DNA of 64,000 nt from Gammaproteobacteria bacterium (GTDB lineage Bacteria > Pseudomonadota > Gammaproteobacteria > Pseudomonadales > Pseudohongiellaceae), in the NCBI GenBank assembly GCA_030654835.1, contig JAURWS010000012.1, forward strand, positions 245,836-309,835, read 5' to 3'. Below are positions 45,757 to 62,051 of this stretch, piece after piece. Positions within the stretch are counted from its first letter, which is position 1. Each line of letters opens with the position of its first letter. The notes beneath the pieces were generated by a model. It searched no databases. It had not been told where the DNA came from and saw nothing but the letters and a program-made list of their open reading frames with translations. A program made the translations under genes and the position numbers.

Positions 45757-47127
45757 CTAACACATCAGGCGAAAGCAACTTCCCTTGCCCTGCGTGCTGT
45801 TCACCGAGAGTGTCGCGTTGTTCAATCGCGCTAACTGCCGTGACAGGCTCAGGCCTACGCCTGTGCCGGTTTCTTTGGTGGTGAAGAAGGGTGTGAAGAT
45901 ATCATCTATGAAGACGGGGTTGATGCCGCAGCCGTTGTCGCGTACCTCAATGACAATGCGCTTTGAGTCCAGTGGTCGGTGTGCCGTCAGTTCGATGCGC
46001 GGATGTTCCGCACCCTTGACCGCGTCTGTGGCATTGCTGAGCAGGTTGAGCAGGATCTGTTCGATGTGATTGCTGTCCGCGTGAATGTGCAGATTCGCAG
46101 GTGTCACCTGATGTATGAACGTTATACCCTCACTGTCGAAGCGCTCCTCCAACAAAGTGGCGAGGCGCTGAAAGAGGCTCTGCAATTCAATGTTACCCTG
46201 CAGCGGACGTGGTGGGTTGCTGAGTGAACGATAAGCCTCCACAAAGCGCAGCAATCCCTGACTGCGTGCGGCAATCGACTCGATGCCCTGGACGATGTCA
46301 CGGTACTGTTCTGCATCTGCGGTGACACTTGCCTGTGCTGGCTGCGCTTCACGAATCACATGCTCCAGATGACTGCTCAGAGACACGATAGGTGTCATCG
46401 AATTCATGATCTCGTGCGTGAGCACCTTGATCAACTTCTGCCAGCTTTCAATCTCCTTCTCATCCAGCGCGGATTTGATGTTGTGCATGGACACCAGCTT
46501 GTGGTCACGCTCCAGCAGCCGGAATTCTGTTGCGGAGAGCATCAGCTGCACGCTGTCGCGACTGATCTCCGTCTTGAGCACGCGCTTTTCACCCGCTTTC
46601 AGATGGCGGAGCGCATCGGCCAGTGGCGGGCAGATGGAATCAATGCGCGAGAGATTGGTGACATGGCGGCTCTTCAACATATCCTTGGCCGCTTCATTGA
46701 TGATCGCAATATCACCCGCGTCATCGAAGCTGAGCAGTGCAGTGTCCACATGTTCGACCACCAGATGCAGGTACTCGTGCTGAGCCGAGCGGTCAGCCTT
46801 CAATTTGCGATACTTTTCCAGCAGGGTGCGCTGCGCTTGCGCAAAATTCTGCGCGGAGATTTCTGCATTGGAGTGCGAAGTGGTGCTGGAGAAATCATTG
46901 TAGGAAATGTTGTTGATGAACTGCGCAAAGTTCTCATTGCTGCGTTCGATCATCTTCATGAGATTGAAGGTCAGTATCAGGATGACGATAGCACTCAGGA
47001 CCGGAGTGCCCACCCACTCGGTAGCGAGCAGGCTGTAGCAGAATACGAAGACCGCACCGATCAGCAGAGTGATGTAGATAATCGCCTGCCCGCGATGACC
47101 TTTGAGGCTACTAATCAGTGAGTTCAT
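45757..47127 (-). CDS. Membrane PAS sensor histidine kinase (NtrB-like)
   Basis: 456 residues from ATG 47127 (MNSLISSLKGHRGQA); the 81 extra track residues run through a decayed abiEii gene. Two N-terminal TM helices (about 14-33 and 40-57) precede a coiled linker. A PAS-like domain follows (LHLVVEHVDTALLSFDDAGDIAIINEAAKDML), then the HisKA box with His238 in KVLTHEIMNSMTPIVSLS. The HATPase has an N-box LLNLLSNATDAVKGAEH, G1 VRDNGCGI and G2 GTGVGLSLSRQLARL. The cognate regulator is probably the sigma-54 activator at 48716-50095, upstream on the same strand but separated from it by an AbiE module. No sigma-54 promoter was found directly upstream of this gene. Confidence 0.9.
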   Translation of the reverse strand: MNSLISSLKGHRGQAIIYITLLIGAVFVFCYSLLATEWVGTPVLSAIVILILTFNLMKMIERSNENFAQFINNISYNDFSSTTSHSNAEISAQNFAQAQRTLLEKYRKLKADRSAQHEYLHLVVEHVDTALLSFDDAGDIAIINEAAKDMLKSRHVTNLSRIDSICPPLADALRHLKAGEKRVLKTEISRDSVQLMLSATEFRLLERDHKLVSMHNIKSALDEKEIESWQKLIKVLTHEIMNSMTPIVSLSSHLEHVIREAQPAQASVTADAEQYRDIVQGIESIAARSQGLLRFVEAYRSLSNPPRPLQGNIELQSLFQRLATLLEERFDSEGITFIHQVTPANLHIHADSNHIEQILLNLLSNATDAVKGAEHPRIELTAHRPLDSKRIVIEVRDNGCGINPVFIDDIFTPFFTTKETGTGVGLSLSRQLARLNNATLSVNSTQGKGSCFRLMC

Positions 47128-47203: not shown

Positions 47204-47798
47204 TCAACGTCTCGGTTGCAAATGCTTGAAGTAGGCTTCCCGCACGACAGCCGCTCCGCGCTCTGCATCAAACTTGGGCAGCCCCGGCCGCAGCAACGTG
47301 TCCATATCCCGACAAAAGGCTGTTTTGCGCAGTCGGGCGTCGAGCAGCGCATGGGCCTCATCACTCCCAATATATGTCTCTTCTCTCTCCCTTGGTGGTT
47401 TCTTCCCGCTGCAATCCCAGAGGGATAAATCGATAGGAAGTGCGCAGGATTTTGGATGGCTTCACGACATTGCGAATCGCCAGCCAGGCATCAGCGATCA
47501 AAGAATCGGTCGGTTGTCCCAGCACCGGTGTCAGAACGCGACGCAGATGCTGATCCAGTGTCTGCGAGTCCATTGCTTTCACGAGTACCAGATCAATGTC
47601 TTCCGAATAGCGCGCGGCAGGTGCCAGGTGAGCCTTGTGCAGTACAGTGCCTCCACGCATCGCCAGATGTTCAGCCAGAACGGGATCGGTGAAAATGGCA
47701 GTGACTCCACGGCACAGTCGCAGATCCTGTTCGATCTGGCTGCGTTTAGGCCAGGGAGCATGTGCCTGCCACGTTGTCAGGTGGGTGTGCTGAATCAT
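47204..47798 (-). pseudogene. abiEii: Broken AbiEii-type nucleotidyltransferase toxin
   Basis: Remnant of the AbiE toxin. The open N-terminal part (47361-47798, 145 residues) keeps the nucleotidyltransferase motif MRGGTVLHKAH ... ARYSEDIDLVLV and SYRFIP. The frame then stops at WE* just after a GA-rich run. The C-terminal end is readable one frame over (REETYIGSDEAHALLDARLRK then FCRDMDTLLRPGLPKF, stop at 47204). AbiEii proteins are usually near 300 residues; the two parts add to about 195. So about 100 residues of the middle are missing, in addition to a frameshift. The ATG overlaps the abiEi stop. A toxic product is unlikely. Confidence 0.85.
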
Positions 47799-48622
47799 GT
47801 ATTTGCACTCCCTGTGTCCATGCCCAACCGTACTTTAAATGTAGTATCCACTTTAGACGACGCATCCCGCTTTTGCCCGCGCTCCAGTGGCACGAGGTGT
47901 AGTGGTTTATCCCTTAGCCATTCAACGATCCGAGCGGCAAGGACACTCTCGCCATCCAGAGCCAACATTGCCCCGAGGCGTTGCGCGGTCGGAACTTCCT
48001 GCAGTGCTTCCAGAGCTTCGACCAGACCCTCGGGTGTGCAGGAAGCCCGCAGTCCTCGCAACACCTCCTGAACGCGGGGAATGCCACCGACTAAGGTGGC
48101 CCGGCCCACAAGCTCAAGCGCGGTCAGTTCTGGTGTGCCAACTCTGAAGCGCCCGTTCGGCGTTTCTTGCCAGCGAGTCGGCATACTTTCGACCCGTGCC
48201 CGCGTGTGAAATACCACCTCATGACGACCAACAAAGATCGGACGTCGGCGTTCGGACACCATCACCTGTATCACCATCACTGCGTAGGGTGAGGCGCCGT
48301 AAGTTTCGGCCGCGCTTAACAGTGCAACGTAGTAGGGAATCCCTAATGTCTTGCCCATATAACGATCCAGCCAGGTCTCCAGTGGCGGTGCGCCAGCGGT
48401 GGCATGCTGCAGCGGTACGATGAGCCAGTGATCCGAGCCACGAGACACGCGAACTAGCCTTCCGCGCTGCTGCTGCCGATATAGTGCCTGACGCAGTGCC
48501 TCTGAGCTGACACCGGGCAGCGCTGCGCGGATGTCCTGCGTGTGCAGATTGAGCTTCCCGGCGCGCTCGGCGTCGTCGAGTACCTTGGATAAGGGGCTGA
48601 TGGCGGACATAAATTTGGCCAT
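47795..48622 (-). CDS. abiEi: AbiEi-type antitoxin/transcriptional regulator
   Basis: 275 residues from ATG 48622 (MAKFMSAISPLSKVLDDAERAG). The track start at 48649 lies inside the operator palindrome, so the later ATG is preferred. An N-terminal winged helix is present (LNLHTQDIRAALPGVSSEALRQALYRQQQRGRLVRVSRG). The AbiEi C-terminal domain follows (PYYVALLSAAETYGASPYAV, VQVMVSERRRPIFVGRHEVVFHTRARV, TPELTALELVGRATLVGGI). AbiEi proteins bind inverted repeats to repress their own operon. The gene looks intact although its toxin is broken. It lies between the regulator and kinase genes of a two-component system. Confidence 0.88.
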   Translation of the reverse strand: MAKFMSAISPLSKVLDDAERAGKLNLHTQDIRAALPGVSSEALRQALYRQQQRGRLVRVSRGSDHWLIVPLQHATAGAPPLETWLDRYMGKTLGIPYYVALLSAAETYGASPYAVMVIQVMVSERRRPIFVGRHEVVFHTRARVESMPTRWQETPNGRFRVGTPELTALELVGRATLVGGIPRVQEVLRGLRASCTPEGLVEALEALQEVPTAQRLGAMLALDGESVLAARIVEWLRDKPLHLVPLERGQKRDASSKVDTTFKVRLGMDTGSANT

Positions 48623-48632
48623 TCTTGGGTAT

Positions 48633-48669
48633 TTCGCGCAATGTATCATTATTCGTTACATTGCGCGAA
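48633..48669. promoter_or_regulatory. Perfect 13-bp palindrome, probable AbiEi operator
   Basis: TTCGCGCAATGTA (48633-48645) and TACATTGCGCGAA (48657-48669) form a perfect inverted repeat with an AT-rich 11-nt spacer, 11 bp upstream of the abiEi ATG. A -10-like TAATGAT lies in the spacer on the minus strand, so binding would block transcription. It also fits the expected site for an autorepressing AbiEi. Confidence 0.75.
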
Positions 48670-48715: not shown

Positions 48716-50095
48716 CTACTGATCGACAAGTTCATACTTCTCCATCTTCCGATACAGCGTCGTTCTACCAAGCCCGAGCAGTTTCGCCACCTGCGTGAGA
48801 TTTCCCTCGCACTGCCGGATAGCGTTACTTATGGCATTTCTTTCCAGCTCCGCGAGGTTCAGGCTACCTGTCGGCTCTTCCAGCACGCGGGTCCCGATTA
48901 GGAAATCCTCCACCGTGAGTTTTGCTTCGGAAGAGATGATGATAGCCCGCTCCACGGCATGCTTCAGTTCGCGCACATTGCCGGGCCACTCGTAAGACTG
49001 CAGCTTGCGCGCGGTGGTCTTGGGAATGCTCACTTCGGGGCGGTTGTATTTCTGAGCGAACACGTGGAGATAGTGTTCCAGCAACAGCGGAATATCAGCG
49101 GTGCGCTCACGCAACGACGGCAGACGGATCTCCACCGTGTTGATGCGGTACAACAAGTCGCGGCGGAATATATCCGGGTTGGAGAGGTCGCGAATAGAAG
49201 CGTTGGTGGCGCAGATCAGGCGAAGGTTGATCGGCATGGGTTTCTGTCCACCCACTCGCGTGATCGTGCGTGACTCGAGCGCACGCAAAAGCTTGGCCTG
49301 CGTGTTGGCTTCCAGGTTGCCAATTTCGTCAAGGAACAAGGTGCCACCTGTCGCAAGTTCGAATTTTCCTGGACGATTTTCCCGTGCGTCGGTGAAAGCG
49401 CCCTTGTTGTAACCGAACATCTCCGACTCGAAAAGTGTGGCCGGAATGGCGCCGATATCCACGGAGATCATCGGCCCGCTGGCCCGCAGAGATTTATTAT
49501 GAATCGCGTGAGCGACCAGATCCTTGCCGGTGCCGTTCTCTCCCGTGATCAGCACGTTGGCATCGGTCGCGGCTACCCGATTGATCAGTGAACGCACTAC
49601 GGCGAAGGAATCGGACTCGCCTATCAGTGCGGCGAACCCGCGCCCCAGCTCTTCGCTAAGCGCCTGCTGCGTGTGCTGCAACTGTTCGATGCGGCGATGG
49701 GATTCGCCCAGCTTCAGGCAGGTGCGCAACGTGGCCACCAGCTTCTCGTTGACCCACGGCTTCTGTACGAAGTCGGCCGCGCCAAGCTTGATCGCCCTCA
49801 CCGCGAGATCGATCTCGCCGTAGGCAGTGGACATCACAACTTGAATGCCAGGATCAGTCTGCTTGATCTTCTGCAGCCAGTAGAGCCCCTCTTCACCGCT
49901 GGTCATGCCCCGCGTGAAGTTCATGTCCAGCAGCACGAGGTCGGGCGGGAAGGCAGTCAACTCGTTACTTAGCTCGGAAGGATTGGACAGGCAGCGCACG
50001 TTGGCAAACTCGCGTTTGAGGATCATCTGCGCCGAAAGCAGCACGTCGCGGTCGTCATCGACGACGAGGAGGTTGCCACTGGTTCTTGTTGTCAT
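48716..50095 (-). CDS. Sigma-54-dependent NtrC-family response regulator
   Basis: 459 residues from ATG 50095 (MTTRTSGNLLVVDDDRDVL); 65 upstream track residues are rejected because they read through the promoter. A receiver domain has phospho-acceptor Asp57 (LVLLDMNFTRG), TAYG and KPWVNEK. The AAA+ domain has Walker A GENGTGKDLVAHAIH, sigma-54 contact loop GAFTDA (usual GAFTGA) and Walker B GGTLFLDEIGNL. A Fis-type HTH closes it (LERNAISNAIRQCEGNLTQVAKLLGLGRTTLYRKMEKY). A -24/-12 promoter and dyads upstream indicate autoregulation. The divergent FtsX transporter operon carries the same dyads. Confidence 0.93.
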   Translation of the reverse strand: MTTRTSGNLLVVDDDRDVLLSAQMILKREFANVRCLSNPSELSNELTAFPPDLVLLDMNFTRGMTSGEEGLYWLQKIKQTDPGIQVVMSTAYGEIDLAVRAIKLGAADFVQKPWVNEKLVATLRTCLKLGESHRRIEQLQHTQQALSEELGRGFAALIGESDSFAVVRSLINRVAATDANVLITGENGTGKDLVAHAIHNKSLRASGPMISVDIGAIPATLFESEMFGYNKGAFTDARENRPGKFELATGGTLFLDEIGNLEANTQAKLLRALESRTITRVGGQKPMPINLRLICATNASIRDLSNPDIFRRDLLYRINTVEIRLPSLRERTADIPLLLEHYLHVFAQKYNRPEVSIPKTTARKLQSYEWPGNVRELKHAVERAIIISSEAKLTVEDFLIGTRVLEEPTGSLNLAELERNAISNAIRQCEGNLTQVAKLLGLGRTTLYRKMEKYELVDQ

Positions 50096-50122
50096 TGCCT
50101 GGTTCCTGCTGAAACGCGGTCC

Positions 50123-50138
50123 GGCAATGCTAGCGCCG
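50123..50138 (-). promoter_or_regulatory. Candidate sigma-54 promoter of the response-regulator gene
   Basis: On the minus strand the sequence reads CGGCGCTAGCATTGCC. The invariant GG and GC are separated by exactly 10 nt, with TTGC at -12 and GGCGC at -24. Predicted start near 50112, giving a leader of about 17 nt to ATG 50095. The first base is C instead of T. Confidence 0.55.
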
Positions 50139-50141
50139 ATT

Positions 50142-50156
50142 GTTTCAGAATGGAAC
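50142..50156. promoter_or_regulatory. Dyad operator copy 1 (response-regulator promoter)
   Basis: GTTTCAGAATGGAAC is a near-palindrome of the type GTTYCA-N3-TGRAAC. It lies immediately upstream of the -24 element, centre about -37 from the predicted start. Confidence 0.55.
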
Positions 50157-50188
50157 AGTTGGCCATGCGATCCCATGTTCCTGAAGTT

Positions 50189-50203
50189 GTTCCATTTTGA
50201 TAG
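50189..50203. promoter_or_regulatory. Dyad operator copy 2 (response-regulator promoter)
   Basis: GTTCCATTTTGATAG. The GTTCCA half is exact. Its first 14 bases are identical to the first copy upstream of the transporter operon. Centre about 84 bp upstream of the predicted start. Confidence 0.6.
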
Positions 50204-50210
50204 GCCCCTT

Positions 50211-50225
50211 GTTCCGGGGTCGAAC
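50211..50225. promoter_or_regulatory. Dyad operator copy 3 (response-regulator promoter)
   Basis: GTTCCGGGGTCGAAC, within the perfect dyad TTGTTC-N7-GAACAA (50209-50227). It has the same 15-bp layout, 22 bp centre-to-centre from copy 2. The inner bases are weaker matches. Confidence 0.45.
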
Positions 50226-50297
50226 AACGGAAGGCGGCAGGATACATACAGACTGGTGTCTGGTTCCGATCTGCTGATCCAGGAACCCAACCCAAGA

Positions 50298-50663
50298 TTA
50301 AAGCAGAGGCAGCACGCGCAATCTGGTCCGCTTTGGATCGATGGTCAGCAGTGCGCCGCTGCTCAGTTCCGCTTCCATTTGGCGAATAGCGATGATTACT
50401 TGGGTACCAATTAACTCCGGAGCCGTTCTTTCTGCACGAATCTGGATGACACTGGGCTTCAAACCTCCTGTGGCAGCCAGAATTGCGCTAAAGTCGAGAT
50501 CGTGAGTAATTACGGTGTAACCGCTTTGCCCAGCAAAGGTCATGATGTCCTTATCCAGCGCGCTTTTCTTGCCAACAGTGGACCAATGCACCGCTTCAAA
50601 TCCGGCAGAGGTGAGCATTCCAACCCAGAGGGGAGACAGATTCATGTCGATTAGGAATTTCAT
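50298..50663 (-). CDS. DUF5615 PIN-like toxin-type protein
   Basis: 121 residues. MKFLIDMNLSPLWVGMLTSAGFEAVHWSTVG carries the first acidic residue of the PIN-like fold. ALDKDIMTFAGQSGYTVITHDLDFSAILA carries the D-x-D and HDLDF motif characteristic of DUF5615/Mut7-C proteins, and PSVIQIRAERT follows. Length is normal, so it is probably intact. It overlaps the DUF433 gene by 4 nt. Such pairs are regarded as toxin-antitoxin modules related to VapBC. Activity is untested here. Confidence 0.85.
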   Translation of the reverse strand: MKFLIDMNLSPLWVGMLTSAGFEAVHWSTVGKKSALDKDIMTFAGQSGYTVITHDLDFSAILAATGGLKPSVIQIRAERTAPELIGTQVIIAIRQMEAELSSGALLTIDPKRTRLRVLPLL

Positions 50664-51076
50664 GCAGAGGTCAGCATGACCTCGCGTTCTTCAGCTCGCC
50701 AAGCAGCATAGCGCAGCGCCTGCATGATGTCTTCGCGTTCCAGATATGGGTATTCTGTCAGCAGATCTTCGATGCTGGCGCCTGTTCCAATCTGGCCGAC
50801 GATCATGCTGACGGTCACTCGCATGCCGCGGACACAAGCTTTGCCGCCCATCATTCCGGGTTGCTGGGTGATTCTCTCAAGTTGATACATATCTCTTCCT
50901 CGTTTCTGAAGCGGATGAGCCTCGTAAAGAGGTTGTACCTCCGCAACTCCTTGTTGTCCTGCAGTGGATTCCGGAGTGACGCCCAGTGCCCCGATCAGCT
51001 TGCGCAGCAGTCTTGCCTGTTGCTGTGGATTCAGAGCAAGAATTTCTTCTTCAAATTTTCTGAAATCATGTGGCAT
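50660..51076 (-). CDS. DUF433 antitoxin-type protein
   Basis: 138 residues from ATG 51076 (MPHDFRKFEEEILALNPQQQARLLRKLIG); the track start adds nine residues. An N-terminal helical part resembles VapB/RelB-like helices. The C-terminal DUF433 HTH domain is YQLERITQQPGMMGGKACVRGMRVTVSMIVGQIGTGASIEDLLTEYPYLEREDIMQALRYAAW. It overlaps the DUF5615 toxin-type gene and is probably its antitoxin and repressor. The pair lies between the two sigma-54 regulatory regions. Confidence 0.85.
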   Translation of the reverse strand: MPHDFRKFEEEILALNPQQQARLLRKLIGALGVTPESTAGQQGVAEVQPLYEAHPLQKRGRDMYQLERITQQPGMMGGKACVRGMRVTVSMIVGQIGTGASIEDLLTEYPYLEREDIMQALRYAAWRAEEREVMLTSA

Positions 51077-51204
51077 GGTGAGCACCGGGCAGTGGACTAT
51101 CAAGTATGTCTAATGAAAGAGCTGGCAGTACTGGTCAGTATAGTCCCGACGACTGAAGTCTGCCAAAGGCTCAGAAGCGACAGTAGTACTCAAGCGTGCA
51201 AACT

Positions 51205-51219
51205 GTTCCATTTTGATAC
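51205..51219. promoter_or_regulatory. Dyad operator copy 4 (transporter promoter)
   Basis: GTTCCATTTTGATAC, nearly identical to copy 2. Centre about 121 bp upstream of the predicted start of the ABC transporter operon, a typical distance for an NtrC-family activator site. Confidence 0.6.
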
Positions 51220-51228
51220 GTTCGCCCT

Positions 51229-51243
51229 GTCCCAATGTGAAAC
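51229..51243. promoter_or_regulatory. Dyad operator copy 5 (transporter promoter)
   Basis: GTCCCAATGTGAAAC, with an exact TGAAAC half. It is 24 bp centre-to-centre from copy 4, so two activator dimers would sit on roughly the same face of the helix. Confidence 0.6.
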
Positions 51244-51306
51244 GCTTCTATTGCCTCGCTATTCGCCAGTATTTGTAATTGATTGATTTATAATGAAAAA
51301 CATGGG

Positions 51307-51322
51307 TGGCACAAAACGTGCT
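51307..51322 (+). promoter_or_regulatory. Sigma-54 promoter of the ABC transporter operon
   Basis: TGGCACAAAACGTGCT matches TGGCAC-R-N4-TTGCW except for one base. GG and GC are exactly 10 nt apart. Predicted start near 51333, leader about 104 nt to the ATPase ATG. A sigma-70 -10-like TATAAT at 51289-51294 lacks a good -35. Confidence 0.7.
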
Positions 51323-51436: not shown

Positions 51437-52114
51437 ATGATCATCAGAACTGAAGGCCTCTCCAAACTGTTCCGCACCGACGAGGTGGAAACCACCGCGC
51501 TGGATTCGATCAATCTCACCATCGAGAAGGGCGAGTTCACTTCCATCATGGGCCCGTCCGGTTGTGGCAAGTCCACGCTGCTGAACATCCTCGGTCTGAT
51601 CGACAATCCCGATGGTGGCAAGTACTGGTTCCTTGATGAGGAAGTGTCTTCTTACTCCGAACGCCAGCGCGCGATGCTGCGCAAGCAAAATATCGGCTTT
51701 GTGTTCCAGAGTTTCAATCTGATCGACGAGTTGACGGTGTATGAGAATGTGGAGTTGCCGCTGATCTATACGAAGACACCTGCTGCCGAGCGCAAGAAAA
51801 AAGTGGAGGCTGTGCTCGAAAAGATGAACATGTCGCACCGCATGAAACACTTTCCGCAACAGCTGTCTGGTGGTCAACAGCAACGCGTGGCGGTGGCACG
51901 GGCGATTGTGAATACGCCGAATTTGATTCTCGCTGATGAACCCACGGGCAACCTCGATAGTGAGCATGGCGCAGAGGTGATGAAGATTCTCAGCACGCTC
52001 AACGATGAGGGTACAACGATTGTGATGGTGACGCACTCGCCTGAAGATGCTGCGGTGGGCAAGCGGATTGTGCGGGTGCTGGATGGGCGGATTGTGAGTG
52101 AAGCAAATTCCTGA
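51437..52114 (+). CDS. MacB/LolD-type ABC transporter ATPase
   Basis: 225 residues from ATG 51437 (MIIRTEGLSKLFRTDEVETTALDSINL), preceded by AAAGGA; the track extension upstream spans the promoter. Walker A SIMGPSGCGKSTLLNILGLID, Q-loop FVFQSFNLIDELTVYENVELPLIY, signature LSGGQQQRVAVARAIV, Walker [13 protein letters not shown] and H-loop VTHSPEDA. This is the shared ATPase for the three permeases that follow. The class works by mechanotransmission across the envelope rather than by classical import. Confidence 0.93.
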   Translation: MIIRTEGLSKLFRTDEVETTALDSINLTIEKGEFTSIMGPSGCGKSTLLNILGLIDNPDGGKYWFLDEEVSSYSERQRAMLRKQNIGFVFQSFNLIDELTVYENVELPLIYTKTPAAERKKKVEAVLEKMNMSHRMKHFPQQLSGGQQQRVAVARAIVNTPNLILADEPTGNLDSEHGAEVMKILSTLNDEGTTIVMVTHSPEDAAVGKRIVRVLDGRIVSEANS

Positions 52115-52163: not shown

Positions 52164-54575
52164 ATGAAATCCCTGTTCGCCTCCTCCGTAACAATTGCGC
52201 TACGAAAAATCGTCAGAGAAAAATTCTACGTCTTCATCTGCGTGGCAAGTCTGGCTCTGGGAGTCACTTGTGCTCTAGTAATTTCTCTCTATCTCCATAG
52301 CGAGATTACCTATGATCAATATCATGAAAATTATGAGCGAATTTACAAAGTAAACACTGCGCTTTCTGATGTCGAAATTCCTGTGTCCGGCCATGTGGTT
52401 GGAGCGCTTCTGGTGCAGGATAACGTCGACATCGTTGATTCTGTGCGCTTCAGGAGCGCTCCCGAAAAGACCTTTACATTTGATCAAAACACCATCCTCT
52501 GGGATGACATCTACCTTGCTGATCCGAGCGTGTTCAGTGTGTTCACGATCAACGTAATTCATGGAGACAAGCAAACAGCCCTGGCCGACCCAAATTCAAT
52601 CGCAATAAGCGAGTCCTTCTCCCGGATATACTTTGGCGACGAAAATCCCTTGGGCCGCGTTCTCTCAACCGCAGAGCACTATTTTCGCGTCACGCTGGTT
52701 TATGAGAACCTCCCCGAGAATGTGGAGTTGCATCACGATGCGCTACTGCCTATGAGTCTAGTTGAAAGCTACGCTCCCGCAGAACTAACTGATTACTTCC
52801 AGCGGTTCGTCAGCGGAAGTACCACCTATCTTCTGGTTTCGGACACATTCAATCCAGAAACTTTCGATGAAGTCTCACAACGTTTTTTCGAAACTCATAT
52901 GGCAGCTGGCTATCCCCCGGGAGTCGGATCATTCGAGCTGCAGATTCAACCCCTGACCTCTGTCTACTACGGCAAGCAATTTCCAGGGGAAGGGAAGAGA
53001 GGAAACATCGTCAATCTTTACGGTCTGTCCGCGCTGGCGGCATTCCTGCTTCTCATTGCCTGCGTGAACTACATCAACATTACGACGGCACGTGCCACGA
53101 AGCGAGCCAGGGAAGTAGGTGTGAGGAAGGTGCTTGGCGCGCAGAAGCATCAACTGGTGATTCAGTTTCTTGGTGAATCGTTCTTCATGTGCACACTCGG
53201 GTTCCTCACTGCAATCATAATGACCGTATGCGTTCTTGAGACAGGAATTATCAATGATCTGACTGGTAAGTCGGAACTCCTCAAAAATCTGTTCAGCTCT
53301 GCAATGCTGTCATATGTAGGAGTGTCCTGGATCTTTGTCAGCCTGATTTCCGGGTTGTACCCCGCTTTTCATCTTTCTCGCACTTCGGTCCTTTCGGGTC
53401 TCATGAATCAGATTGGTAGCGGACCGGGCATGTGGAATGTGCGGCAACTGCTTGTGCTGTTCCAACTGGTCATCTCCAGCAGCGTGATCATCTGTGTGCT
53501 GATGATGGAGAATCAGGTACGTTTTGTATTGAACTCACCGCTGGGTTTCGAGAAGGACAATCAACTTGTCGCGCGACTGCAAGGGGCCGATGTTCTCGCT
53601 AGTCTCCCCGCGATCAGGGCGGAGCTGGCGTCCCACAACGAAATCGTTTCTGTGACTACTGCGCAGAGAGCGCCTGGTCGCGGATTGAACGTTTCCATAA
53701 ACGATATCGAAAGCAATGATGGCACTGACGTCAGTACCGTGGTTCATACGTTCGCTGTAGGCGCGGACTATCTCGACGCTCTGGGGATCGAGCTGATACA
53801 AGGCAGGGAATTTTCTGACGACATGACGACCGAATCACCCGTGCTGGTCAATGAAACTCTGGTCCGACAAATGGAGTGGGAGCAACCAATTGGAAAGCAG
53901 ATTGGGGGTGGCGAAATCGTGGTGGGAGTGTTCAAGGACTTCCACTACTTGTCGCTGCATGAACCAATCGGACCTATGGTGCTAAGACCAACGCTGGAAG
54001 ACTTCAGTCAACTGACTCCTCAACAGCGCGAAGATGTCAATCGTGAGCTCCTGATCGGCATTAGTGGGAATAATGTCGAAGAGACGCAACGCTTCATCCG
54101 AGAGACGCTGGAGCGGTTCACCGATAATCCCGCGACGCAGCTGACCTTACTGGACGAAAGCTGGAGAAATTTCTACGAAGAGGACCTCAGGGCTACGAAA
54201 ATGGCTAGAGTCTTTGCGGTAATCAGCATAGGAATTTCTTTACTGGGACTTATCGGCCTGTCTGCCTATGCCACTGAACAGCGCAGCAAGGAGATTGCTG
54301 TGCGAAAGATTCTCGGAGCTTCCGTTGGGCAAGTGCTGCGCATGCTGTCAAAGAGCACTCTGGCACTGACCGCTCTCGCCGCAATTCCCGCATCGCTTGC
54401 CAGCTATTACGCAATCGAATTCTGGCTGGCGAGATTCGCCTATAGAACCGAGATCGGTCTAGCGCCCTTCTTGATAGCGTTTACTGCTATTGCAGTGATC
54501 AGTGTCGCGACAGTATCTCTGCAATCCTACAGAGCGGTAAGTGCGAACCCGGCGGAGAAGCTGCGCTATGAATAA
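52164..54575 (+). CDS. FtsX/MacB-type ABC permease 1
   Basis: 803 residues, a duplicated MacB-type permease. TM1 is FYVFICVASLALGVTCALVISLYL (about 17-40), then a large periplasmic domain (EITYDQYHENYERIYKVNTALSD). A first FtsX domain at about 275-410 contains IACVNYINITTARATKRAREVGVRKVLGAQ. A further TM segment lies near 425-445, then a second periplasmic domain. The last FtsX domain (680-803) contains SAYATEQRSKEIAVRKILGASVGQVLRML and ends SANPAEKLRYE. It has the same length as the next gene, suggesting tandem duplication. Codon use looks less GC-rich than in the core genes. Substrate unknown. Confidence 0.88.
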   Translation: MKSLFASSVTIALRKIVREKFYVFICVASLALGVTCALVISLYLHSEITYDQYHENYERIYKVNTALSDVEIPVSGHVVGALLVQDNVDIVDSVRFRSAPEKTFTFDQNTILWDDIYLADPSVFSVFTINVIHGDKQTALADPNSIAISESFSRIYFGDENPLGRVLSTAEHYFRVTLVYENLPENVELHHDALLPMSLVESYAPAELTDYFQRFVSGSTTYLLVSDTFNPETFDEVSQRFFETHMAAGYPPGVGSFELQIQPLTSVYYGKQFPGEGKRGNIVNLYGLSALAAFLLLIACVNYINITTARATKRAREVGVRKVLGAQKHQLVIQFLGESFFMCTLGFLTAIIMTVCVLETGIINDLTGKSELLKNLFSSAMLSYVGVSWIFVSLISGLYPAFHLSRTSVLSGLMNQIGSGPGMWNVRQLLVLFQLVISSSVIICVLMMENQVRFVLNSPLGFEKDNQLVARLQGADVLASLPAIRAELASHNEIVSVTTAQRAPGRGLNVSINDIESNDGTDVSTVVHTFAVGADYLDALGIELIQGREFSDDMTTESPVLVNETLVRQMEWEQPIGKQIGGGEIVVGVFKDFHYLSLHEPIGPMVLRPTLEDFSQLTPQQREDVNRELLIGISGNNVEETQRFIRETLERFTDNPATQLTLLDESWRNFYEEDLRATKMARVFAVISIGISLLGLIGLSAYATEQRSKEIAVRKILGASVGQVLRMLSKSTLALTALAAIPASLASYYAIEFWLARFAYRTEIGLAPFLIAFTAIAVISVATVSLQSYRAVSANPAEKLRYE

Positions 54576-54659: not shown

Positions 54660-57071
54660 ATGTTCAACCTGGCGATCACAATTGCAGTACGCAAACTGCT
54701 AAGAGAAAGGCTCTATGTGTCGATCTCCATCGGTAGCCTGACGATTGGCATTGCCTGTTCACTGATCATTGCGTTGTATCTTTACAGTGAGTTGACCTAT
54801 GACCAGTCGCACAAGAATCATGAACGAATCTATCGGCTAAGTTCTACTGCTTATACCATGACCATGAATGGTGCCGGGACAGAAACCGGACCAATCCTCA
54901 TGCGAGAAAATCCGGAGATTCTTGACTACGTGCGATTTCGTGCCGCCCCAGAACAGTGGTTTACTGTTGGTGACAATTCGCGCGTTTGGGAAGAGATATA
55001 TCTCACAGATCCAAGCGTCTTTAATGTCTTCACGTTGAATGTCATCCACGGTGACAAAGACGCGGCATTAGATGATCCCTATTCAATCGCTATCAGTGAA
55101 TCGTTCGCCAAACACTACTTCGGCGACAGGAATCCGGTCGGAGAGGTTATAAATACTGAGCGATTCGGATTTCGCGTTTCGCTGGTGTACGAGGACATGC
55201 CTGAGAATGTCCAGTTCAAGTACGATGCCATTCTTCCGTTCGAGCTGATGGAAGTCTACAGCCCGGGATTTCCTGGCTCATCTAGTAACGGAAAATACCT
55301 GGCGGCCGTGACAACGTACCTGCTGGTCAGTGATGATTTCTCTCCAGAAGTATTCGATACGATTCGCAAAGGATATTTTGAGACATACCTCCAATCTGAA
55401 CTCCCAGTCGAGGCTGGTGAGTACAAGCTGCATGCGCAACTTCTAACGGAAAACTACTACAGCGAGCCAATTCTGGATGGTGGACGCACTGGCAACGTCG
55501 CGACTGTCTACACCCTTGCTGGGCTCGCCGTGTTTCTCCTGCTGATGGCCTGTATCAACTACATTAACCTGACCACGGCTCGCGCAGGCAAGCGCCTTCT
55601 CGAGATAGGCATGCGTAAGGTGCTGGGTGCAAGCCGATCTCAGCTGATTGTTCAGTTACTCTGTGAATCGTTTGTGTATTGCACAGTCAGTCTGCTGGCG
55701 GGAATTCTGTTGGCGGTCTGCGTTCTGGAACTCTCCTTGCTGGATGAACTGGTTGGTAAGTCCGAGTTACTGACAATGCTCTCTCGTCCACCTGTGGCTC
55801 TTCTTGTTCTTGTATTATGGATCACTGTCAGTCTTGTCGCCGGGCTCTATCCGGCTCTACACCTGGCAAGAACGCGCGTCATGTCCAGTCTGAAACCTGC
55901 TGCCAGAATGAAGCAGCTCCCCGGTGTCCGTGAAGTGCTGGTTGTTTTTCAACTGGTCATCTCATGCTGCATTATTATTTGCGTATTGATCATGCAGAAC
56001 CAGGTGCATTTCGTCCTGAATGCCCCCCTGGGTTTTGAAACGAAAGACAAACTGACTGTCCGTCTGAGGGGCGCGGATGTAATAGAACAGATAGGAGCTA
56101 TCAGGCAGCAGCTATTGCAGTCAGGCTCTGTGAGAGCTGTCGCGACGGCTGGGTTCGCACCGGGACAAGGACTGGCCATGTCCATCACCGAAGTGGAAAG
56201 CAACGATGGAGTACTCAACACAACCATGACTCATCCTCTCAATATAGAGCCAGATTTTCTAACCGTCATGGATATCGATGTGATTGCGGGGAGAGGGTTC
56301 TCGTCACTACCAGATGAGAAGGAGTTGTCCTATGTGATGGTCAGTGAGGCACTGGTCCGTCAGATGGACTGGGACCAGCCTCTTGGCAAAAGAATCGGCA
56401 GAGGAGAAGTGATCGGAGTATTCAGAGATATTCACTACCAATCGCTGCATGAACCCATTGGTCCGCTCGTACTCTGGCCACTGAACAGTGCCCCGAACGC
56501 CTTCAGCAGTCTGTCCGAGTCGGCACGCGCTCAGCTAGAGCGCGATCTTATAATTGCAGTGACGGATGATCTGTCTGCAGCACGCCGCGACATTCTGGAG
56601 GTGCTATCCAGATTTACATCAGGTCGCAATCTGGAACTTCGAAGCCTGGAAGACAGCTGGCTGCGCTTCTATCAGGACGACGTCAAAGCCGCCCGGCTAG
56701 TGAGCATTTTTGCAGGCATCAGCATTTTCATTTCCCTGCTGGGTCTCATTGGACTGACTTCTTACGCGGCGGAGCAACGCAGCAAGGAGCTCGCCATACG
56801 CAAAGTGCTGGGGGCCTCAGTCGGCCAGACTCTGCTGTTGCTTTCCCGGCATGCGATGCTTGCGTTGGCGTTGGCGATTGTCCCTGCATCGCTGCTAAGC
56901 CTTTACCTCATGCAAATCTGGTTGAGCCGGTTTACCTATACAGATGATGTCACAGTAGCGCCCTTCATATGGGCGTTTTTACTGATAGCCGCCATCAGCC
57001 TCACAACAGTTGTATTACAGTCATGGCGAACAGTGACGGGAAATCCTGTCGAAAGATTGCGTTACGAATGA
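54660..57071 (+). CDS. FtsX/MacB-type ABC permease 2 (paralogue of permease 1)
   Basis: 803 residues, colinear with permease 1. TM1 is LYVSISIGSLTIGIACSLIIALYL, followed by ELTYDQSHKNHERIYRLSSTAYT. The first FtsX domain has MACINYINLTTARAGKRLLEIGMRKVLGASRSQLIVQLLCESF. The second is SYAAEQRSKELAIRKVLGASVGQTLLLLSRH, ending TGNPVERLRYE. An 84-bp gap separates it from permease 1, without a visible promoter. Most changes from permease 1 are conservative and both copies are intact, so both are probably functional. They may form heterodimers with each other or with permease 3. Confidence 0.88.
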   Translation: MFNLAITIAVRKLLRERLYVSISIGSLTIGIACSLIIALYLYSELTYDQSHKNHERIYRLSSTAYTMTMNGAGTETGPILMRENPEILDYVRFRAAPEQWFTVGDNSRVWEEIYLTDPSVFNVFTLNVIHGDKDAALDDPYSIAISESFAKHYFGDRNPVGEVINTERFGFRVSLVYEDMPENVQFKYDAILPFELMEVYSPGFPGSSSNGKYLAAVTTYLLVSDDFSPEVFDTIRKGYFETYLQSELPVEAGEYKLHAQLLTENYYSEPILDGGRTGNVATVYTLAGLAVFLLLMACINYINLTTARAGKRLLEIGMRKVLGASRSQLIVQLLCESFVYCTVSLLAGILLAVCVLELSLLDELVGKSELLTMLSRPPVALLVLVLWITVSLVAGLYPALHLARTRVMSSLKPAARMKQLPGVREVLVVFQLVISCCIIICVLIMQNQVHFVLNAPLGFETKDKLTVRLRGADVIEQIGAIRQQLLQSGSVRAVATAGFAPGQGLAMSITEVESNDGVLNTTMTHPLNIEPDFLTVMDIDVIAGRGFSSLPDEKELSYVMVSEALVRQMDWDQPLGKRIGRGEVIGVFRDIHYQSLHEPIGPLVLWPLNSAPNAFSSLSESARAQLERDLIIAVTDDLSAARRDILEVLSRFTSGRNLELRSLEDSWLRFYQDDVKAARLVSIFAGISIFISLLGLIGLTSYAAEQRSKELAIRKVLGASVGQTLLLLSRHAMLALALAIVPASLLSLYLMQIWLSRFTYTDDVTVAPFIWAFLLIAAISLTTVVLQSWRTVTGNPVERLRYE

Positions 57072-57144: not shown

Positions 57145-59568
57145 GTGTTCACTCACATGAGAATCACTCTGCGAAACTTGCGTCGCGAAAAATTCTACGC
57201 AGGCATCAACGTGCTCGGTCTCGCCGTCGCCATCGTCTGCACGTTTCTCATCGGCATGCATGTGACCAACGAACTGACTTACGATGAGCATGTGGAAGGG
57301 CACGAGAACATCTACCGCGCAACGCTCGACCTGACCAACAACACTGGTACGACCACGTTTGCACAGATGTCGCACTTCATGGGGCCTGCACTGGCAGTGC
57401 AGAATCCGGCGATTAAAGCGTTTGTCCGCTTCAGGGCGATGCCAGGACAGAGCCTGATTCGTGTGCAGGGGCAACCCTACTACTGGGACAATGTTTACGA
57501 AGCCGATGACAACGTCTTCGCAGTGTTTGACCACAAAGCCGTCTACGGCGATATGCAGACCGCTCTCATCGATCCCGGTGCAGCCGCGATCAGCAATCGC
57601 TTCAACCAGATTCACTTCGGTGGCGCCGATTCAATTGGTGAAACCATTACCGTTAACAATCGCGACTATCGAGTGGGCCTGGTCTATGAGGATCAGTCGG
57701 GCAATACCCACTTCAAGTACGACGTGCTGCTTTCGATTAATGGTCTGGCGTATCCGGAGCCGGCCGCCTTGCCAATGTCGCTGTTCACGGTCAGCACCTA
57801 TACTTATTTCGTACTGACAGATAACTATGCTGCAGCGGATTTTTCAGAGTTTTTTGCATCCTACTGGGAGAACACTAACGGAGAATTGTTGCGCGGAGCA
57901 GGACTGAGCAATGCCATGCACATTACTCCGATTGCGGATGTCCATTACGGTCCGTCGATGGAGTACGATCAACCGGTAGGCAATATCTCAATTGTGTACG
58001 CCTATGCGGTGATTGGCGCCTTGATCCTGTTGGTGGCCTGCATCAACTATGTCAATCTCGCGACAGCCCGTTCCGCAGGGCGGTTCAAGGAAGTGGCCGT
58101 ACGCAAGGTGCTTGGTGTGAATCGCGGAGCGCTGATTGCGCAGTTTTTGCTGGAATCCGTCTGTATCGCGCTGGCCTCGGGTGGGGTAGCTTTGGCGGGG
58201 CTTGAAGTGCTGGTGCAATCGGGTGTCGCCGAGCTGTTCAGTGGAGCTTTGGAGCCAGCCGTATATCGTGAGCCTGTGTTCCTGTTTTCTATTCTCTTGG
58301 GCAGTGTGATGCTGGGGTTGGTGTCAGGTTTGTATCCGGCCTTCTATCTGTCCTCGCGATTCGTGATGCCCGGAAGTGTACGTCACTCCAACAATCGCTC
58401 GGATTCCTTGCTGCGTCGGCTGCTGGTGATCTTCCAGTTTGCAGTCACCGTTTCCGTGATCGCCGGCAGTATGTTGATCGTCGCGCAGATGCGCTACATC
58501 CAGAATGCCCCACTGGGTTTCGACAGAGACAACAAACTCGTCGTTGATGTGCAGGGCGTCGATTTTATTGAGCGCACGCCGGTGCTTGCCGATCGCCTGC
58601 AAAGTCTGCCGCAGGTAGCAGGTGTCACGTTGACGGCACTGGACCCGGCGGTGGAATCCTATGCGGGCAACTGGCAGTTGGAAAACAATGATGGCGCGCT
58701 GGAGCCGTACTTTCTGAGCTTCCAGAACGTCGACAGCCGTTATCTCGACGTCATGGGTATGGAGCTGGTCGCGGGTCGATTCTTCACGGCCGAAGATGCA
58801 CGCAACCTCGTGGTGGTCAATGAGACACTCGTGGAGCAGATGGGCTGGACCAATCCGATCGGCAAGCGCACCGGCATGCCGGCAAATGCGCTGGGATCGG
58901 AAATCGTCGGCGGTGTGGTGAAGGATTTTCACTTTGCTGGATTGCAGGAAGCGATTGGACCGTTGATCCTGCGACAGACGAATCCCAGCTTCTACAGCGT
59001 GGTGACCAATCCTGAGCAACGCGCTGCCCAGAGCGCCAGGATCACGATTGCGCTCACCGATGGCACTGATTCGAAAACGTTGAATCGTTTGGAAAGCATC
59101 TGGCGCGAAGTGATGCCGGAACTTCCCTTCGACTATCGCACCCTCGACGACATCATTCGTCAACAATACGACAGCGAGAATCGAATCCTCGACATCATTG
59201 CCTGGTTCGCCGCCGTGTGCATCCTGATTTCCTGTCTGGGGCTGTTAGGGCTGAGCGCCTATTCCACCGAGCGTAGAACCCGCGAGATCGGTATACGCAA
59301 GGTCTTCGGTGCCAGCGTTGGCCAGATCATGACTGTGTTGTTCCGCAATATTTTTGTGCTGGTTTGCATTGGTTCAGTGATCGCGTCGGTACTGTCGTGG
59401 TACACCATCAATGCGTGGTTGCAGAACTTCGCTTATCGCGATGAGATCAACCTGCTGGTGTTTCCGGCAGCCGCTGCACTCGCGACTCTTTCTGCATTCC
59501 TGACGATGGCGCTGCAATCGTGGAGCACGATCAGAAAAAATCCTGTTCATGCGTTGCGATATGAGTAG
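57145..59568 (+). CDS. FtsX/MacB-type ABC permease 3
   Basis: 807 residues, more divergent and more GC-rich than permeases 1 and 2. The start is GTG 57145 (MFTHMRITLRNLRREKFYAGINVLGL) because CTAAGGAG lies 5-6 nt upstream; ATG 57157 is the alternative. TM1 is INVLGLAVAIVCTFLIGMHV, then ELTYDEHVEGHENIYRATLD. The FtsX domains are VACINYVNLATARSAGRFKEVAVRKVLGVNRGALIAQFL and LSAYSTERRTREIGIRKVFGASVGQIMTVLF, ending RKNPVHALRYE. It is followed closely by the adaptor gene. Confidence 0.88.
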   Translation: MFTHMRITLRNLRREKFYAGINVLGLAVAIVCTFLIGMHVTNELTYDEHVEGHENIYRATLDLTNNTGTTTFAQMSHFMGPALAVQNPAIKAFVRFRAMPGQSLIRVQGQPYYWDNVYEADDNVFAVFDHKAVYGDMQTALIDPGAAAISNRFNQIHFGGADSIGETITVNNRDYRVGLVYEDQSGNTHFKYDVLLSINGLAYPEPAALPMSLFTVSTYTYFVLTDNYAAADFSEFFASYWENTNGELLRGAGLSNAMHITPIADVHYGPSMEYDQPVGNISIVYAYAVIGALILLVACINYVNLATARSAGRFKEVAVRKVLGVNRGALIAQFLLESVCIALASGGVALAGLEVLVQSGVAELFSGALEPAVYREPVFLFSILLGSVMLGLVSGLYPAFYLSSRFVMPGSVRHSNNRSDSLLRRLLVIFQFAVTVSVIAGSMLIVAQMRYIQNAPLGFDRDNKLVVDVQGVDFIERTPVLADRLQSLPQVAGVTLTALDPAVESYAGNWQLENNDGALEPYFLSFQNVDSRYLDVMGMELVAGRFFTAEDARNLVVVNETLVEQMGWTNPIGKRTGMPANALGSEIVGGVVKDFHFAGLQEAIGPLILRQTNPSFYSVVTNPEQRAAQSARITIALTDGTDSKTLNRLESIWREVMPELPFDYRTLDDIIRQQYDSENRILDIIAWFAAVCILISCLGLLGLSAYSTERRTREIGIRKVFGASVGQIMTVLFRNIFVLVCIGSVIASVLSWYTINAWLQNFAYRDEINLLVFPAAAALATLSAFLTMALQSWSTIRKNPVHALRYE

Positions 59569-59588: not shown

Positions 59589-60842
59589 ATGGACAAGGTC
59601 ATTGAAAAGAAAAAGCGGCCCCTCTGGCAATGGGGCGCGATGGGATTGGGCGTTGCAGGATTGCTCTGGTTCATGCAGGGCATGCTGGCCGATGCAGCGA
59701 TCCGCACGTATCGGGTGGACGCGGAGCAGCTCGTGATGTCGGAGGTGACACTGGGCGCCTTCGAGGATGTCACGCCGATACGCGGCACCATCCAGCCGTT
59801 CACCAGCGTGTTTCTCGATGCCGTCAACGGCGGCGTCGTCGAGGAAGTGCTGGCGGAGGAGGGCAGCTTCGTGGAGGCCGGGCAACCACTACTGAAGCTG
59901 AGCAATGGCGATCTGCAGTTACAAGTGGCGAGCAATGACACGCAGACCACCGAGCAGTTGAACAATCTCGCCAACATCAGCAACGGTCTGGAGACCACGC
60001 GCCTGATGACCGAACGTGCGCTGATTGATACCGAGTATCGCATCAAGGTGCTGGAGCGTCAGAAGCAACGACTGGAGCAGTTGCTGGGCGACAATCTGGT
60101 GTCGAGGGAAGAGTACGACGCGATCTCCGACGAACTGGCATACCAGAAGAATATTCACGCCAACACAATGGAACGGCAGGTACTGGAGGAACGCATTCGC
60201 AAGGAGCGAACACTGCAGATCGCCGGGCAGACGAACAAACTGCAGGACAACCTGGCACTGGCCCTGAACAGTTTTGAAAATCTGCTGGTGCGCGCGCCGG
60301 TGGCTGGACAACTAACGTCGTTGCCGGTGGAGATTGGTGAGAGCAAGATTCGCGGGCAGCGGCTCGGGCAGATTGATGTCATCGACCAGTACAAGATTGT
60401 CGCGCAGGTGGACGAGTACTACGTGACGCGAGTCGCCCCCGGACAATCCGCACGCTTCACGTTGGCTGGCCAGCAGTACCAGGCCAGTGTGCTGAAGGTG
60501 TATCCGGAAATCACTGAAGGTACGTTCACCGTGGATCTGATAATGGAAGGTGGCACGCCCGACAACCTGCGTCGCGGACAAACCCTGCAGCTGGACCTCA
60601 CGCTGGGGAATCCTGTGGAGTCCTTGCTGCTGCCGCTCGGTGGTTTCATTCAGGATACGGGAGGCAACTGGGTTTTCGTGGTGGACGCGGAAGGTAATTA
60701 CGCCGTGCGCCGCGACATCGTTACCGGGCGACGCAACAACCGTTATGTGGAAGTACGCGAGGGATTGTCGTCGGGTGAGAAAGTGATTACGTCCGCGTAT
60801 TCGCAGATGGGTGAGGTGGAGCGGATTGAGCTGGCTCAATAG
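59589..60842 (+). CDS. HlyD/MacA-type periplasmic adaptor
   Basis: 417-residue membrane fusion protein. An N-terminal anchor (LWQWGAMGLGVAGLLWFMQGML, about 12-33) is followed by a lipoyl half-motif with GTIQPFTSVFLDAVNGGVVEEVLAEEGSFVEAGQPLLKL. A coiled-coil hairpin lies near 115-220 (VLERQKQRLEQLLGDNLVSREEYDAISDELAYQKN). The second lipoyl half is LLVRAPVAGQLTSLPVEIGESK, and the beta-barrel and proximal domains follow (VRRDIVTGRRNNRYVEVREGLSSGEKVITSAYS). With the ABC genes it would form a tripartite pump or envelope complex. An outer-membrane TolC-type gene is not adjacent. Confidence 0.92.
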   Translation: MDKVIEKKKRPLWQWGAMGLGVAGLLWFMQGMLADAAIRTYRVDAEQLVMSEVTLGAFEDVTPIRGTIQPFTSVFLDAVNGGVVEEVLAEEGSFVEAGQPLLKLSNGDLQLQVASNDTQTTEQLNNLANISNGLETTRLMTERALIDTEYRIKVLERQKQRLEQLLGDNLVSREEYDAISDELAYQKNIHANTMERQVLEERIRKERTLQIAGQTNKLQDNLALALNSFENLLVRAPVAGQLTSLPVEIGESKIRGQRLGQIDVIDQYKIVAQVDEYYVTRVAPGQSARFTLAGQQYQASVLKVYPEITEGTFTVDLIMEGGTPDNLRRGQTLQLDLTLGNPVESLLLPLGGFIQDTGGNWVFVVDAEGNYAVRRDIVTGRRNNRYVEVREGLSSGEKVITSAYSQMGEVERIELAQ

Positions 60843-60923: not shown

Positions 60924-62051
60924 AACAGAGCATCGCTCCCACTGCCATGTTGTAATCCATGCGCTCCCCTTGCCAGAGCGTTACAGCGGTGCGTGAGTCA
61001 ATGACCAGCCCGAGACTGTCGTGCTCCTGCTCGATGGCGAGCGTTTCGCTCACTGTCTCGTTAGCACTATCAAATTGCGGAACAACCGCCACCATCGCGC
61101 ACTTGCAGCGCGCGGCGGATGGAGGGAGGGATCGTGCGAGTCCTGCGCCCCACATTCAGGACGTCGCCGCGCGAGTCTTCCAGAACAATGACTATCGATG
61201 CGTCGCAGCACAGACGCCTGGTAGTGGCGGCAGACAGTGGGAAATGATCGGTGCCGCACTCGACTGAGCATTGATGGCGGTCTGTGTGTAGTACCCCCTC
61301 AGCCACCCTCTCGCGCTCGATGTGTACCATCACCTGATATTTTTCGGCAGAGGATAGTGGCCGCAATCCCTCATCCATCGTACTCATTGCCTGCTCGGCG
61401 AGCGCCAGCAATGTATCGGCACGTTTCTGCGGGAACGTTTTTACAGGGATTTCTTCCTCCGACTCTTCCGGCTCTTCCGACTCTTCTGATTCGGCCACCG
61501 GAGGATTCAGCGCTGACACCATCGCATCCATGGCAGTCAAGAAGACTGCGCCATCCTCCGGCGTCAAGCGACCGCGCAGCACCAGCATCCCGTCTTCGTC
61601 GAAGTGACAGACGAATTCCCGTGCCTCGCAATTGTTGCGATCGCGCGCCGTTTCACTCAACCGCTCAGTACGACGATATTTGCGTACCAACTGCTCAATA
61701 TGCTGTGCCGTGCCATGTCGGGCCACCTGCAGCAGCATCGTCTCGTGCTCGGGTTTGGTCAGACGGGTCATGGCGCGCACTTTGGAGTAAATGATTTCGC
61801 CGGTGCGAAACGTTTCATCGATGCCTGGGAAATTCTGCAGGCTTTTCGCCACGCGCACTTTTTCGCGTGCGGCGCCGAGATCGATCCCGCAATAATAATT
61901 GAGCCAGTGCGCCGGAGATTTCATGCCAGCTCCCTCCCATGCATTACGTTCGATCAACGCGGCGAGTGATCTCGTTGCTCAGGGCAGCGTTGTCCTCAGG
62001 GATAAACGAGATGGGGGCGGGCAGGGTTGCGAGCGAAGATGCGTGTGACAT
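60883..62051 (-). pseudogene. Decayed DUF222/HNH nuclease-like gene
   Basis: Three pieces in different frames reconstruct one gene. (1) N-terminus from ATG 62051, MSHASSLATLPAPISFIP to SNEIT, which then frameshifts. (2) The DUF222 body (61070-61957), AWEGAGMKSPAHWLNYYCGI, GAAREKVRVAKSL, VCHFDEDGMLVLRGRLTPEDGAVF, then RRALQVRDGGGCS and a stop. (3) A C-terminal end in the third frame, TAVTLWQGERMDYNMAV, running into the REP element. The HNH core expected right after RDGGC (P-G-C, HHI and zinc cysteines) is absent between pieces 2 and 3. Near the N-terminus about 15 residues are also missing. A nuclease activity is therefore very unlikely. Confidence 0.85.

Follow-up and report, generated by a model that had tools for sequence, protein, structure and literature searches.

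Paired 17-bp dyads very probably link an NtrC-family response regulator to a sigma-54-type promoter of an FtsX-type export operon in a Pseudohongiellaceae genome

Do the repeated dyads that lie near an NtrC-family response regulator gene and an ABC transporter operon belong to that regulator, and which of the neighboring genes would they control? The window analyzed here (the whole 64,000-nucleotide stretch of gammaproteobacterial DNA) contains five such dyads, as a preliminary description had reported, with the full 17-bp frames beginning one base earlier than given there. The dyads conform to the consensus TGTTYCA-N3-TGRAACA, with the frame TGT-N11-ACA, and are arranged as follows (G005 and G011 are related genomes):

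50141-50157, no strand assigned: regulator-proximal dyad, TGTTTCAGAATGGAACA, preceding the regulator in every gammaproteobacterial orthologue examined
50188-50204, no strand assigned: first dyad of the 50188/50210 pair, TGTTCCATTTTGATAGG, whose flank matches the enhancer of a G005 FtsX operon
50210-50226, no strand assigned: second dyad of the 50188/50210 pair, TGTTCCGGGGTCGAACA, at 22-bp spacing
51204-51220, no strand assigned: distal dyad of the ABC-operon enhancer, TGTTCCATTTTGATACG, second in the window as a single site and orthologous in G011
51228-51244, no strand assigned: proximal dyad of the ABC-operon enhancer, TGTCCCAATGTGAAACG, 24 bp from the distal dyad

The spacings of 22 and 24 bp agree with those described previously, and the near-identity of the second and fourth copies also holds, with the count of identical bases being 15 in the 17-bp frame (TGTTCCATTTTGATA) rather than 14. 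When a weight matrix is built solely from distant orthologues (regulator identity of 60-80%), 51204/51228 ranks first (score 38.2) and 50188/50210 second (25.8) among ∼190,000 pair placements in the window; the best other placement scores 11.0, and the maximum over 20 shuffled windows is 11.4. As single sites the five dyads rank 1, 2, 3, 4, and 7, so the 50210 dyad alone is unremarkable and it is the pairing that stands out. Searches of the window's own genome (G000) with a single dyad return too many chance matches to define unlinked targets. We note an isolated near-perfect dyad, CGTTCCATTCTGGAACA, at G000:C40:12256-12272, which could be an unlinked target or a chance occurrence, and because it has no partner dyad we do not call it a target.

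The regulator and the transporter operon are encoded on opposite strands, with sequence elements typical of sigma-54 control ahead of the operon:

48716-50095, minus strand: NtrC-family response regulator (Pfam Response_reg, Sigma54_activat, HTH_8; ATG at 50095)
51276-51288, minus strand: IHF-consensus match AATCAATCAATTA, a perfect match to WATCAANNNNTTR, between the ABC enhancer and promoter
51307-51322, plus strand: sigma-54 -24/-12 promoter of the ABC operon, TGGCACAAAACGTGCT (10/11 consensus positions)
51437-52114, plus strand: ABC transporter ATPase (Pfam ABC_tran)
52164-54575, plus strand: FtsX/MacB-type permease 1 (Pfam FtsX, MacB_PCD)
54660-57071, plus strand: FtsX/MacB-type permease 2 (an 803-aa frame resembling permease 1, with MacB_PCD matches)
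57145-59568, plus strand: FtsX/MacB-type permease 3 (Pfam FtsX, MacB_PCD)
59589-60842, plus strand: HlyD-family membrane-fusion protein, the last gene of the operon (Pfam HlyD_3)

The regulator combines a receiver, a sigma-54 AAA+ domain, and a Fis-type HTH in one protein, with Pfam matches far above the cut-off and a start codon (ATG at 50095) that is conserved with its orthologues. The sigma-54 contact loop reads GAFTDA rather than GAFTGA, keeping the core GAFT and replacing the next G, and this is the common form among 40 regulator homologues (GAFTDA in 29 and GSFTDA in 7 more). There is one rpoN in the genome (Sigma54_DBD match, E 3.8e-71). The -24/-12 element TGGCACAAAACGTGCT begins 79 bp past the start of the proximal dyad at 51228, bearing out the earlier placement of a promoter with GG-N10-GC spacing downstream of this dyad pair, and the same geometry recurs in relatives. 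The match at 51276-51288, one of four perfect IHF-consensus matches in the 64-kb window, may be a DNA-bending IHF site. The ATPase is 83-96% identical in G011, G007, and G023. No TolC-type gene is seen in the ABC operon, and a DUF222/HNH-like frame (61070-61957, minus strand, assigned by look only) follows the HlyD gene on the opposite strand.

Orthologues of the regulator are present in 4 of the 56 related genomes searched, with 93, 91, 80, and 62% identity. Phylogenetic conservation of the dyad had been suggested as a check, and each gammaproteobacterial orthologue of this gene is indeed preceded by the dyad. Regulator and ABC genes point directly away from each other in G007 and G023, and the region between them holds three dyads: a single one next to the regulator gene and, nearer the ABC genes, two that are 23-24 bp apart. 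In thirteen enhancer units (that of the window plus 12 in seven relatives: G011, G005, G007, G023, L052, L053, and L054), a GG-N10-GC promoter lies at a distance of 76-79 bp, counted from where the proximal dyad starts, with 22-24 bp between the dyads of the gammaproteobacterial pairs. Among these units are additional FtsX operons in G005, G011, and G023 and in a Pseudohongiella metagenome-assembled genome (MAG). The exceptions to this geometry are the 50188/50210 pair of the window and one L053 unit. Among ten genomes searched in full, the paired-dyad pattern has five matches, all of them in the cluster (G000, G007, G011, and two in G005), compared with one match for a reversed-pattern control, and there is no match in the whole genomes of five relatives lacking a close regulator orthologue. 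What is observed directly is the sites themselves, how they are conserved, paired, and spaced, and that they are linked to the regulator. We also note that the orthologous clusters of L039, L040, L042, and L053 each contain more than one separate FtsX operon, that most of these operons have a dyad pair and a -24/-12 promoter of their own, and that the number and order of these operons vary among these relatives.

The association extends well beyond the gammaproteobacteria. Scanning of GTDB genomes identifies 80 homologous loci, mostly in Bacteroidota, whose neighbors often include a kinase, FtsX permeases, an ABC ATPase, and HlyD. Little is found when the gammaproteobacterial 14-position consensus is scanned directly over these distant homologues. 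Enumeration of spaced half-sites, however, finds TGT and ACA exactly 11 bp apart before 39 of 72 regulators (6.4 expected), and 11 bp is the only gap length that stands out. TGT-N11-ACA lies within 300 bp before the regulator in all six gammaproteobacterial orthologues for which the region is covered (0.4 expected), before 30 of 42 homologues in the mostly Bacteroidota set L055-L098 (2.6 expected), before 9 of 30 in the more distant set L099-L128 (42-46% identity; 2.4 expected), and before 1 of 24 other NtrC-family regulators. The distant homologues commonly have pairs with a 22-23 bp spacing; in Bacteroidales such as L107, L113, L114, and L126 these precede -24/-12 promoters by 69-71 bp, and paired dyads with -24/-12 elements 69-81 bp away are seen in the Bacteroidota loci overall.

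The fourth base of the dyad is associated with the residue that follows the conserved Arg of the regulator's recognition helix: residue T goes with base T in 12 of 14 cases, Q with C in 16 of 19, and P with A in 7 of 13. A naive permutation reproduces this association in 0 of 5,000 trials, but the tree provides only two to four independent contrasts (none contrary), and because these are so few we treat the covariation as suggestive; it may largely reflect shared ancestry. In the tree, the gammaproteobacterial regulators group together in a supported clade that is surrounded by sequences from Bacteroidota, Ignavibacteriota, and Chlorobiota, which, in a sample chosen by similarity to the window, hints at transfer of the regulator between phyla. 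The window's own genome has two paralogous regulator-kinase-FtsX systems, L043 (G000:C40:62000-81900) and L044 (G000:C31), and TGT-N11-ACA is not found in the stretches of C40 and C31 examined, an argument that the systems are insulated from one another in specificity. Near HlyD, L043 has a TGGCACAGTCTCTGCT promoter with dyads of another specificity, GTTCCC/GGGAAC.

Because such sites recur at matching distances in related systems, even in Bacteroidota, the regulator very probably uses the dyads as its own switches for the transporter. Spaced palindromes are bound by many factors and binding by this regulator is a prediction, but we consider it very improbable that the dyads belong to another transcription factor, given that the pairs are absent from five relatives without the regulator, that the frame travels with the regulator across phyla, and that the inner dyad base varies with its recognition helix. 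It had been proposed that the regulator binds these dyads and activates both itself and the transporter; the link to the transporter is strongly supported, with binding predicted from the sequence, and it is sigma-54 self-activation that is not supported, as set out below.

Two further genes lie between the 50188/50210 and 51204/51228 pairs:

50298-50663, minus strand: DUF5615 (PIN-like) protein, putative toxin (Pfam PF18480, PF18478)
50660-51103, minus strand: DUF433 protein, putative antitoxin (Pfam PF04255)

Their position between two enhancers, together with 88-90% identical copies that adjoin another enhancer in G005, could suggest that the dyads are operators of this toxin-antitoxin pair. 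However, G007 and G023 have these dyads too, and there the divergent regulator and ABC genes are immediate neighbors with no DUF pair in between (the DUF5615 gene is absent from this intergenic region in both), and we reject this reading as scarcely credible. Toxin-antitoxin genes do recur at the cluster, with DUF5615/DUF433 also present in G005 (L040 102-904), and a Phd-like antitoxin frame, read by eye, lies between two G005 FtsX operons, upstream of L040 6870.

What would the single dyad at 50141 do? Two overlapping promoter candidates are located here:

50123-50138, minus strand: the -24/-12 candidate of the preliminary description, CGGCGCTAGCATTGCC (8/11 consensus positions), probably not a promoter of this type
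50127-50155, minus strand: putative sigma-70-like promoter TTCCAT-N17-TAGCAT under the 50141 dyad, proposed from the TAGCAT spacing in orthologues

TAGCAT lies exactly 8 bp past the regulator-side dyad in six of the eight promoters compared (window, G011, G005, G007, L052, and L053); L054 has TAGGAT and G023 is ambiguous. A TTCCAT-like hexamer stands 17 bp ahead of this element. The -35 hexamers of these sigma-70-like promoters are weak, and the constant spacing indicates that the dyad would cover the -35 region. The 50141 dyad is thereby a probable autoregulatory operator, and its conserved placement over a sigma-70-like promoter points to autorepression, as in PspF. Judged by this layout, autorepression is likelier than the sigma-54 self-activation suggested previously, in which the regulator would drive its own gene from a promoter at 50138 (minus strand) using the 50188/50210 pair. 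Such a promoter has in its favor a GG-N10-GC element with 8 of 11 consensus positions and a dyad pair 66-88 bp upstream, but the element is kept only in the window and in G011, a 93%-identical relative, and its distance of 66 bp from the nearest dyad of the pair breaks with the 76-79 bp found elsewhere. In most orthologues the proximal dyad is followed after 8 bp by TAGCAT, with no -24/-12 element in its place, and we regard self-activation as unlikely.

The three regulator-side sites had also been treated as one unit, and they are better divided into the likely autoregulatory 50141 dyad and the 50188/50210 pair, which resembles a displaced enhancer of another FtsX operon. The stretch from just past the 50141 dyad through the 50210 dyad aligns to a G005 FtsX-operon enhancer (score 39, compared to a maximum of 20 when shuffled), and the similarity ends soon past the second dyad. 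There is no -24/-12 promoter at the usual distance from the pair, and the DUF5615 gene ends ∼70 bp beyond it. We conclude that 50188/50210 is probably a relic enhancer; the simplest account of its history would be that an FtsX operon was lost or moved and that the toxin-antitoxin pair stayed or arrived. NtrC-type enhancers can act at a distance, and both dyads are still recognizable (single-site scores of 15.0 and 10.9), such that the pair could conceivably be a working remote enhancer for the 51307 promoter ∼1.1 kb away, or part of a three-site autorepression array with 50141. We think this possible but rather doubtful, as decay of the half-sites is more advanced than at 51204/51228 and a promoter is lacking at the usual distance. 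With the relic reading preferred, the locus shows an apparent enhancer that outlived its operon after rearrangement.

The signal would reach the regulator through a kinase encoded nearby:

45757-47127, minus strand: sensor histidine kinase (HATPase_c; two transmembrane [TM] helices with a very short loop, by hydropathy)

This is presumably the cognate kinase and would phosphorylate the regulator. In G011, G007, and L052-L054 its gene comes immediately after that of the regulator and overlaps it, and the near-loopless two-TM topology is shared with 15 of the 17 kinase homologues tested by hydropathy. The two genes are apart in the window, with an AbiEi/AbiEii module between them, and are apart in G005 too; the gene cluster is evidently fluid, since kinase and regulator are split in these two although their genes overlap in most orthologues. 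The AbiEi/AbiEii toxin-antitoxin module occupies 47361-48649 (minus strand), and AbiEii looks truncated, being just 145 aa long and aligning to ∼64 of the 238 positions of its profile.

Together, we regard as highly probable an NtrC-type two-component regulon with an export operon driven from 51204/51228, autorepression at 50141, and a relic enhancer at 50188/50210. Weighing against it are the GAFTDA loop, the small number of independent contrasts for the residue-base association, the weak -35 hexamers, and the sparser occurrence of the frame before the more distant homologues. The kinase would phosphorylate the regulator (48716-50095), which would then assemble on the 51204/51228 pair and loop, probably with IHF, to sigma-54 RNA polymerase at 51307-51322, switching on the ABC-FtsX-FtsX-FtsX-HlyD operon. 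By binding the single 50141 dyad over its own sigma-70-like promoter the regulator would limit its own synthesis, and the 50188/50210 enhancer, left by a lost or moved FtsX operon and without its own promoter, may still add to binding. The exported substrate is probably an antimicrobial peptide or other envelope-stress compound. In Bce modules, intramembrane-sensing kinases work with FtsX-type transporters, and because the kinase here resembles them, our working guess is that the signal is a peptide or envelope stress and that it may be relayed through the transporter.

Sigma-54 control of FtsX-type exporters has so far been proposed from promoter scans alone, in a 2025 position-specific scoring matrix (PSSM) survey of gammaproteobacteria, Opitutia, and Bacteroidia, which reports that FtsX-like (COG0577) permeases are preceded by sigma-54 promoters and presents this as the first evidence of the link (PMC12316311). 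The passages of it drawn on here name no activator or enhancer sites, both of which are proposed here. A 2011 survey has no mention of FtsX or MacB (PMC3162934), and we find no described controller for this transporter family in the open-access literature, although an earlier description elsewhere is possible. Sequence comparison provides a candidate activator, binding site, enhancer geometry, and possible recognition code for FtsX-type exporters, and gives the transporter family a wiring diagram. The motif and geometry are usable for regulon searches in many genomes, including those of gut Bacteroidales.

The locus fits a known type of control, that of a regular sigma-54 enhancer system. It resembles the NtrC/glnA type in its receiver-AAA+-Fis HTH regulator, in the paired 17-bp dyads before a -24/-12 promoter, and in a possible IHF site between them, but differs in the core TGTTYCA-N3-TGRAACA, the GAFTDA loop, and an FtsX-type export operon in place of nitrogen genes. 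The Escherichia coli PspF-pspA system similarly has a regulator divergent from a sigma-54 membrane-stress operon, matching the ancestral layout of G007 and G023, and enhancer binding there activates the operon and represses the regulator, as the layout suggests here; when PspF binds the pspA enhancer, with IHF, its own expression goes down (PMC3709507). PspF, however, has no receiver domain and is held by PspA, whereas this regulator has a Response_reg domain and a kinase, and here a separate single dyad covers the regulator promoter. Bce-type antimicrobial-peptide resistance modules (PMC10314905) likewise combine an FtsX-type ABC transporter with a two-TM kinase that has almost no extracellular loop, but the present system has an NtrC-type regulator with sigma-54 rather than an OmpR-type regulator, as well as an HlyD adaptor, as in Gram-negative exporters. 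A broader reading, to which we give somewhat less than an even chance, is that one NtrC-type lineage keeps this arrangement (a pair of TGT-N11-ACA dyads at 22-24 bp spacing, followed after ∼70-80 bp by a sigma-54 promoter, with FtsX-type exporters and a kinase of almost no loop alongside) across Bacteroidota, Chlorobiota/Ignavibacteriota, and some gammaproteobacteria, with an inner base that changes with one recognition-helix residue, and would constitute a widespread, undescribed sigma-54 counterpart of the Gram-positive Bce peptide-sensing modules.
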